Source: Pseudomonadota bacterium
GTDB lineage: Bacteria > Desulfobacterota > S145-22
Reading direction: 5' to 3'
Assembly: GCA_015493505.1 (NCBI GenBank)
Contig: WGDA01000008.1
Location: forward strand, 1 to 48,729
DNA length: 48,729 nt
Under the pieces are notes generated by a model. The model ran no database searches, was not told the DNA's origin, and was given only the letters and a program-made list of their open reading frames with translations. The position numbers and the translations under genes were made by a program. Each line of letters begins with the position of its first letter. The first letter of the stretch is position 1. Positions 27,166-28,849 of the stretch are shown in pieces.

Positions 27166-27372
27166 CTATTGAAACCTTTTGGGTTTTTCTGGAAAAATCT
27201 TTTCTTCTTCTATTACCATTCCGTTGTCTTTTAACGCTTCTCGCAACTCTTCACGGGTAATCAGGCCCTTTTTCACAAGGAGATCCACCAGCGCGTTCTG
27301 ATGGACTATATTGGTTAATATCAGGTCATAGACCATTTCGTCATCTCTAAAATCATCACTATACTGTGCCAA
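27166..27372 (-). CDS. Small conserved-looking protein of unknown function
   Basis: A 68-residue acidic, helical protein. The middle (IVHQNALVDLLVKKGLITREELREALKD) looks like a helical hairpin seen at the ends of assorted bacterial proteins, but I cannot assign a family. The start is TTG, supported by AGGAGG eight bases upstream and by an almost perfect promoter (27412-27440). It sits alone between the pst operon (convergent) and the fmdB-like gene. Confidence 0.7.
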   Translation of the reverse strand: MAQYSDDFRDDEMVYDLILTNIVHQNALVDLLVKKGLITREELREALKDNGMVIEEEKIFPEKPKRFQ

Positions 27373-27536: not shown

Positions 27537-27740
27537 TCACGAAAAAGCACTGCTGCCACAGGAGCTGGACGCGGAAAAGCCACCGCTGCTGCTGCTGCCA
27601 GAGGAGAAAGCCGACATCAGGCGGTCCGGGTTTTTCGCGTGGCATTTGGGGCACGTTACCTCTTCCTTGCTTGCGCTGGCCCGCATGATGATTTCAAATT
27701 CATGTCCGCATTCCTTGCACTTAAATTCGTAAATTGGCAC
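27537..27740 (-). CDS. FmdB-type zinc ribbon protein
   Basis: A 67-residue protein with the FmdB/putative regulatory zinc ribbon: MPIYEFKCKECGHEFE, then CPKC (C30, C33). Metal ligands are C8, C11, C30 and C33. The tail is a Ser/Gly-rich low-complexity stretch ending with CGSSAFS, usual for this family. FmdB was named from amidase operons, but the family is widespread and its role is unsettled. The start is GTG behind AAGGGGGTGA. It has its own promoter (27771-27799) with an inverted repeat at the -35 side. Confidence 0.87.
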   Translation of the reverse strand: MPIYEFKCKECGHEFEIIMRASASKEEVTCPKCHAKNPDRLMSAFSSGSSSSGGFSASSSCGSSAFS

Positions 27741-27903: not shown

Positions 27904-28053
27904 CTATTTTGTGTCTTTTTTATCTTTGTATCGATCCTCGATACTGCACGCCTCGCTCATTCAGGTTGAAACCCCCAGTTTGGGGAACACAAACCTGTTC
28001 AGCACGAACCACACGCCAAAGATGACGATCAACCAGAGTAAATCACTGTCCAT
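27904..28053 (-). CDS. Candidate small membrane selenoprotein (in-frame TGA)
   Basis: Reading from ATG at 28053, the first 30 codons give a membrane helix (LLWLIVIFGVWFVLNRFVF) and the tail PKLGVST. Then comes TGA (27963-27961), followed by 18 more sense codons (MSEACSIEDRYKDKKDTK) to a TAG. If TGA is selenocysteine the product is 49 residues with a U31-x4-C36 pair just after the membrane helix. Support: GAGG six bases before the ATG, a near-consensus promoter (28083-28111), and a 6-bp hairpin 16 bases after the TGA with G in the second loop position (27928-27944). It lies beside ccdA, a thiol-redox membrane gene. Alternative: a plain 30-residue membrane peptide ending at TGA. Family not recognised with certainty. 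Confidence 0.5.
27928..27944 (-). promoter_or_regulatory. Possible bacterial SECIS hairpin
   Basis: Minus strand GTATCG, loop AGGAT, CGATAC: a perfect 6-bp stem starting 16 bases after the in-frame TGA. Loop length and a G among the first two loop bases fit the general bacterial SECIS model. The stem is short and a bulged U cannot be confirmed. Confidence 0.4.
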
Positions 28054-28082
28054 CAGGAACCTCGATCTTAAATTTCCCATTT

Positions 28083-28111
28083 ATTATATCAGGTTTTTCT
28101 ACGGAGGTCAA
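28083..28111 (-). promoter_or_regulatory. Strong predicted promoter for candidate selenoprotein gene
   Basis: Minus strand TTGACC (28106-28111), 17 bases, TATAAT (28083-28088). The match is 11 of 12. The leader before the ATG at 28053 would be about 23 bases. Confidence 0.75.
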
Positions 28112-28138: not shown

Positions 28139-28849
28139 TTACAATTTTGTCATGAAGACCTCAAACCCACCCAGCAGCATAGCGATTCCTACAATGATCA
28201 GGAAACTCCCGCTGATGACATTAATCACCCGCAGGTGGCGCTTGATCCATCCCGAGGCTCCTAAAAACGTATTAATGGCTAGCCCCGCGAAAAAGAAGGG
28301 AAGCGCCAGCCCCAGTGAGTAAAAGGCGAGAAGTATAATCCCTTTGTACACGCTGCCCGTGGAGCTCGCGTACAGGAGGATGGTGGCGAGGATAGGGCCG
28401 ATACAAGGCGTCCAGCCGGCCGCGAAGGTTACCCCTGTCAGGAATGAACCGAACAGGCCAATCCTCTTGCGCTCGAGCTGAAACTGCTTGTTTTTCTCAA
28501 GAAAGTTGAATTTGAAAATTCCCAGAAAATGGATGCCAAGAAGGATGATGATAACCCCACCTATTTTCAGGATGAGGTATTGATGCTTCAGAAGCAACCC
28601 CCCAATCGATGTGGCGGAGGCGCCCATGAGGGTAAAGACCACCGTAAAACCAATAACGAAAGAGAGAGAGTGCCGGAACGTGTTCCATCGGACCTTTACC
28701 ATCGAATCCCCGGCTGTCAGGTCACTGAAAGAGGCCCCCGTCATGTAAGTCAGATAAGAAGGGATTAAGGGCAGAATGCAGGGGGAAACGAAGGATAACA
28801 GGCCAGCCGAAAAGGCAACAAGGATAGAAATAGAGTGCGTTTCTGCCAT
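28139..28849 (-). CDS. ccdA: CcdA-type thiol-disulfide transmembrane reductase
   Basis: A 236-residue membrane protein of the CcdA/DsbD-beta family with six helices. It moves electrons from cytoplasmic thioredoxin across the membrane for cytochrome c maturation or periplasmic thiol reduction. The two redox cysteines are in FVSPCILPLIPSYLTYMTG (helix 1) and GWTPCIGPILATIL (helix 4). It starts 31 bases after dctM but has its own promoter (28872-28900) and a GAGG site. No thioredoxin or ccsA/resB gene is adjacent; the next gene downstream is the candidate small selenoprotein. Confidence 0.93.
   Translation of the reverse strand: MAETHSISILVAFSAGLLSFVSPCILPLIPSYLTYMTGASFSDLTAGDSMVKVRWNTFRHSLSFVIGFTVVFTLMGASATSIGGLLLKHQYLILKIGGVIIILLGIHFLGIFKFNFLEKNKQFQLERKRIGLFGSFLTGVTFAAGWTPCIGPILATILLYASSTGSVYKGIILLAFYSLGLALPFFFAGLAINTFLGASGWIKRHLRVINVISGSFLIIVGIAMLLGGFEVFMTKL

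Follow-up and report, generated by a model that had tools for sequence, protein, structure and literature searches.

A new family of small membrane selenoproteins

Here, we describe a gene that, on comparative sequence evidence, almost certainly encodes a genuine selenoprotein, a member of a new family of membrane-anchored proteins of about 50 residues in which an in-frame UGA is decoded as selenocysteine (Sec). More than 200 relatives across three bacterial phyla carry the same in-frame TGA and are read through at it, and it is this that marks the family as a real selenoprotein family. Our high confidence covers the Sec family and not the model of its function that is proposed below. Selenoproteins are well known as a kind of protein, and the family is new within that kind. 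The earlier note on this DNA had read the TGA as Sec and the product as a new small membrane selenoprotein with a U-x4-C motif, a reading that comparative genomics strongly supports. That it is also a redox protein is something we infer.

The gene lies on the minus strand, from 28053 to 27904, of the window (the whole stretch of 48,729 nucleotides that was analysed), and all the elements described for it were confirmed on that strand, which the earlier note had not named. The features of the region are:

28139..28849, minus strand: CcdA/DsbD transmembrane-domain protein, directly upstream (Pfam PF02683, 3e-19)
28083..28111, minus strand: sigma-70-like promoter, TTGACC-17-TATAAT with a TG extension (consensus match only)
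28060..28063, minus strand: ribosome-binding site GAGG, 6 nt before the ATG (seen in the sequence)
27904..28053, minus strand: selenoprotein gene of 49 codons, closed by TAG (translation with TGA as U; homologues read through the same TGA)
27988..28041, minus strand: single predicted membrane helix, spanning roughly residues 5-22 (the family conserves this hydrophobic stretch)
27961..27963, minus strand: selenocysteine codon TGA, U31 (TGA in 79 of the best 80 relatives found by a pattern without this codon)
27946..27948, minus strand: Cys36 codon TGC, putative second redox residue of U-x4-C (Cys column invariant or nearly so)
27928..27944, minus strand: SECIS-type hairpin GUAUCGA-GGA-UCGAUAC (fold, covariation and z against a synonymous null)
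27537..27740, minus strand: FmdB-family zinc ribbon, directly downstream (PF09723, 5.6e-16; TIGR02605)

The frame opens with the ATG at 28053 and runs for 30 codons to the TGA, which is followed by 18 sense codons, with Cys36 five residues past U31, and by the TAG at 27906-27904. With TGA as U the product is MDSDLLWLIVIFGVWFVLNRFVFPKLGVSTUMSEACSIEDRYKDKKDTK. Promoter, ribosome-binding site, 30-codon membrane peptide, in-frame TGA and Cys-containing 18-codon extension were thus all present as first described. The promoter-like element scores 11 of 12 consensus matches and has an extended -10. An in-frame ATG at 28080 sits just behind the -10 box; homologues begin at the 28053 Met and not there. 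The order of genes in the window is CcdA, selenoprotein, FmdB. A small conserved protein (MAQYSDDFRDDEMVYDLILTNIVHQNALVDLLVKKGLITREEL...), encoded at 27166-27372 on the minus strand, likewise stays close to the selenoprotein at L004, L006 and L007, loci of the window's own family.

Distribution and conservation of the family

Relatives found by homologue search extend beyond the U position and carry U or Cys there, as the first reading requires. Matches occurred in 83 of 198 related genomes, and essentially every significant full-length match had exactly one TGA; a few of these also extend into a natural TAA or TAG. Profile searches, with the Sec column set to X, gave matches in 171 of 395 Desulfobacterota genomes (TGA in all matches listed), 25 of 198 Spirochaetota genomes (all with TGA) and 33 of 343 Planctomycetota genomes, one of them weakly (hence about 32). 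The family is therefore present in roughly 40% of the sampled Desulfobacterota and in about a tenth of the sampled planctomycetes and spirochaetes. A weak match in genome G512 (E 8e-5, no TGA) was set aside, and tblastn against plasmids gave no match.

GTDB genomes were also scanned with the pattern LN[RK]W[IVL][LF]P[KR][LMF]G, which excludes the Sec codon; an initial profile (A2) covered too much diversity to serve in such a scan. The 143 relatives recovered belong to Desulfobacterota, Planctomycetota (Aquisphaera, Singulisphaera, Pirellulales) and Spirochaetota. At the Sec codon the best 80 of them had TGA in 79 cases and Cys in one, and never TAA or TAG, so that the interchange of stop codons which the earlier note had named as refuting its reading did not appear. 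Single-linkage clustering merged almost everything, and clade counts are uninformative.

U and its surrounding residues are conserved, as is a Cys that stands five or six positions further on. After the N-terminal helix the family motif is [N/Q]-x-x-x-[LF]-P-[KR]-x-G-x-x-T-U-[ML]-S-x(1,2)-x-C, or in short form [KR]xGxxTUMSxxC. Several spirochaete genomes (G406, G408, G865, G891, G941) carry two paralogous copies, each with an in-frame TGA.

Translation past the TGA and decoding as selenocysteine

For the first five codons behind the TGA, changes per site at the three codon positions between related sequences were 0.39/0.31/0.54, and before it they were 0.32/0.16/0.54. After the TAA or TAG they were flat (0.74/0.74/0.74). 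This codon-position bias, lost after TAA/TAG, indicates that the frame past the TGA is translated. It is most improbable that the TGA is a real stop behind a 30-residue membrane peptide, with an open frame beyond it by chance: similar membrane micropeptides are common and a short open extension is not improbable in one genome, but here hundreds of genomes conserve the extension, its Cys being almost invariant, and the scan at the Sec codon together with the coding pattern behind it rules out a chance extension.

Complete selenocysteine machinery is encoded by the host: selA, selB, tRNA-Sec (selC) and selD, the search for which had been suggested at the outset, were all found, and selD carries its own in-frame TGA. 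Within Desulfobacterota the co-occurrence with SelB is uninformative, SelB being present in 175 of 198 genomes, and we therefore turned to the Sec and Cys forms of planctomycetes. Five planctomycete homologues (L153, L165, L170, L171, L181) have Cys at the Sec residue. None of their five genomes has SelB above cut-off, compared to 35 of the 39 Sec-form genomes checked (Fisher p 1e-4). A full SelB match is missing in the other four, one of which (G401) has a C-terminal piece of SelB; we assume that these assemblies are incomplete or fragmented.

Read-through by other means, such as general suppression or UGA read as Trp or Cys, is equally improbable. Read-through alone does not name the inserted residue, but Cys takes its place exactly where the genome lacks SelB, a hairpin of SECIS type has been kept, and the host has the full selABCD set and decodes a TGA in selD. 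SelB and tRNA-Sec would decode the UGA with the help of the hairpin just 3' of it.

A hairpin under selection behind the UGA

The hairpin of the window starts 16 nt past the TGA, as first noted. Its stem and loop had been given as 6 bp and AGGAT; folding gave instead 7 bp closed by a GGA triloop, with an MFE of -8.3 kcal/mol. The loop stands 23 nt after the TGA and begins with G. According to the bacterial SECIS model, the loop lies 16-37 nt after the UGA with a G in its first two bases, the stem has at least 4 bp and the MFE is at most -7.5 (PMC13188914); the window hairpin agrees with this model in spacing, loop G, stem and energy. Within the window there is a single occurrence of its sequence, where 0 would be expected. 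As the fold by itself is unexceptional (z -1.2), the strength of the hairpin comes from comparison among relatives and not from the single fold.

In 49 divergent members, less than 70% identical to one another, the best stem at the SECIS position had a mean energy of -7.3 kcal/mol compared to -2.6 kcal/mol for synonymous recodings (z -13.3). The same test on an upstream control region gave no such signal (z +2.0). When all 100 sequences were compared column by column without realignment, hairpins standing in different registers blurred the signal, and covariation was therefore tested on one register class of 16 sequences. There, 93% of cells pair, seven of the eight hairpin pairs show two-sided changes, and the 27 two-sided compensatory cells were reached by none of 500 shuffles; pairing was lost when the partner strand was slid. 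A simple contiguous-stem search did not find the hairpin in L086, L090 and L108, and an Rfam search of the region returned nothing relevant.

These comparisons indicate that the hairpin is under selection. It is encoded by different peptides in different clades, for example RIEDR, ELPVRE, AVSPR and SPVNRG, and the family thus illustrates the extent to which the tail of a protein can be set by an RNA signal.

Genomic neighbourhood

Most copies are isolated or lie in contexts that vary, and in Pfam tallies of immediate neighbours no single family dominates. The most recurrent neighbour is an FmdB zinc-ribbon gene, found at 27 of 134 loci at a distance of up to about 650 bp, in every case on the strand of the selenoprotein; a few loci in the neighbour counts given here are the same gene counted twice. 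In the far flanks, four times as much sequence, it occurred at 2 loci. FmdB genes stand upstream or downstream, at about a fifth of loci (L012, L081 and L097 among many). ArsR-type regulators were near at 18 loci, compared to 5 in far flanks of about four times the length, and thioredoxin at 7 loci near and none far. In L012 and L014 the order is ArsR, selenoprotein, FmdB, thioredoxin, CcdA. The nearest named relatives of the ArsR-type repressors are general ArsR/SmtB metalloregulators, followed by BigR and TsoR. The recurrent same-strand adjacency may also be a clue to the function of FmdB.

FmdB, ArsR and thioredoxin are more recurrent neighbours than CcdA, whose adjacency had been part of the original interpretation. 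CcdA does adjoin the gene in the window's own family, in the ArsR/FmdB/thioredoxin/CcdA group and in L019; as a universal feature the adjacency was rejected, since it holds in few groups.

At four planctomycete loci (L165, L170 and L171 with Cys, L159 with Sec), and not elsewhere, the gene stands in a putative operon with two sulfide-related enzymes. Directly ahead of it is a metallo-beta-lactamase-rhodanese gene of the persulfide dioxygenase type, and behind it comes an SQR-like flavoprotein gene, which in L159 (SelB-positive genome G714) lies about 1 kb further on. The best model for this flavoprotein is the type III sulfide:quinone reductase (SQR), 'selenoprotein subtype', with a score below cut-off.

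By eye, arsenite-methyltransferase-like and arsenate-reductase-like genes were seen upstream of L154 on the opposite strand (-1831 to -514), with an ArsR-like frame between.

Possible function

Lys and Arg number 3.1 after the helix compared to 0.36 in the first four residues, a charge distribution that suggests an N-out/C-in topology. The U/Cys pair would then sit at the cytoplasmic face of the membrane. There, it could form a reversible selenenylsulfide or carry sulfane sulfur, and thioredoxin and CcdA might be its partners in an exchange of electrons or sulfur. In planctomycetes the protein would stand between SQR and the persulfide dioxygenase/rhodanese, and ArsR-type repressors may control the gene in several lineages. 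From these neighbours we tentatively favour a membrane-tethered selenol/thiol relay for electrons or sulfane sulfur, a proposal that we consider somewhat less likely than not. As neighbourhoods vary, this model draws on association between neighbouring genes, and on the smaller part of the loci. The more specific version, a selenol 'arm' that passes sulfane sulfur or electrons among SQR, persulfide dioxygenase/rhodanese and thioredoxin-CcdA, is more doubtful. If true, the arm would be a new and very small class of redox carrier, found mostly in anaerobes and with Sec kept nearly everywhere.

A somewhat less probable alternative is that this is a true selenoprotein for binding of, or resistance to, metals and metalloids (As, Hg, Cd), with no part in thiol or sulfane-sulfur redox. 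The excess of ArsR-family regulators near the gene and the arsenic-related genes near L154 would fit such a role, and a recent review ties many odd selenoproteins to metals. However, no canonical ars transporter was seen beside the gene, the named relatives of the ArsR of L011 include BigR, and the thioredoxin, CcdA and SQR/persulfide dioxygenase neighbours speak for redox chemistry. It is less probable again that the protein is a small accessory subunit or chaperone which works with the FmdB zinc ribbon and has no redox turnover of its own. FmdB recurs more than any other neighbour and itself has rare Sec forms, but most loci, among them those of planctomycetes and spirochaetes, have no FmdB gene beside the selenoprotein, and the conserved U and Cys suggest redox chemistry.

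Relation to known families and systems

Pfam and NCBIfam gave no match for 19 Sec members, nor NCBIfam for 4 Cys members, and none of the 119 selenoprotein families catalogued in a 2026 review resembles the new one. Literature searches likewise returned no match, although their coverage was incomplete and absence from all literature is unproven. The family probably escaped the catalogues that we checked because it is tiny, because gene callers would cut it short at the TGA, and because it is almost always Sec; the last property would hide it from Cys-based search methods, a limit for almost-always-Sec families that the deep-Sep authors themselves state. It adds to the known selenoproteins a widespread family without a known domain, provides natural Sec/Cys swaps that track SelB, and may point to a use of selenium in membrane thiol/sulfide redox.

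Members do not have a thioredoxin fold with a UxxC or CxxU motif: about 20-30 residues follow the helix, the motif is U-x4-C or U-x5-C, and no Pfam model matches. TsoA/B/C/X/Y, KCU-star, CC/Se motif, OS_HP3-5 and DF/DG/DW are likewise predicted selenoproteins of unknown function, several of them in deltaproteobacteria and some with an ArsR-type regulator (TsoR). However, their NCBIfam models match no scanned member, their motifs differ, and none has been described with U-x4-C in a single-helix protein of about 50 residues.

Among sulfur-handling systems, relatives of type III SQR and of Blh-type persulfide dioxygenase/rhodanese (BigR/SqrR operons) flank the new gene in planctomycetes, matching the NCBIfam models below curated cut-offs. 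These are large enzymes, whereas the new protein is a membrane-anchored peptide without homology to either. The CcdA/DsbD-thioredoxin relay is similar in its membrane location and paired redox residues, and CcdA and thioredoxin are neighbours in some lineages; CcdA is a polytopic membrane protein, however, whereas the new protein crosses the membrane with a single predicted helix and lacks a thioredoxin fold. YgaP-like transmembrane proteins (DUF2892) are small membrane proteins that adjoin the new gene in L099, L130 and L181, although no sequence similarity to it is established. The recurrent planctomycete context at these three loci consists of a zf-HC2 protein, the small U/Cys protein, the YgaP-like protein and a cytochrome bd-like subunit.
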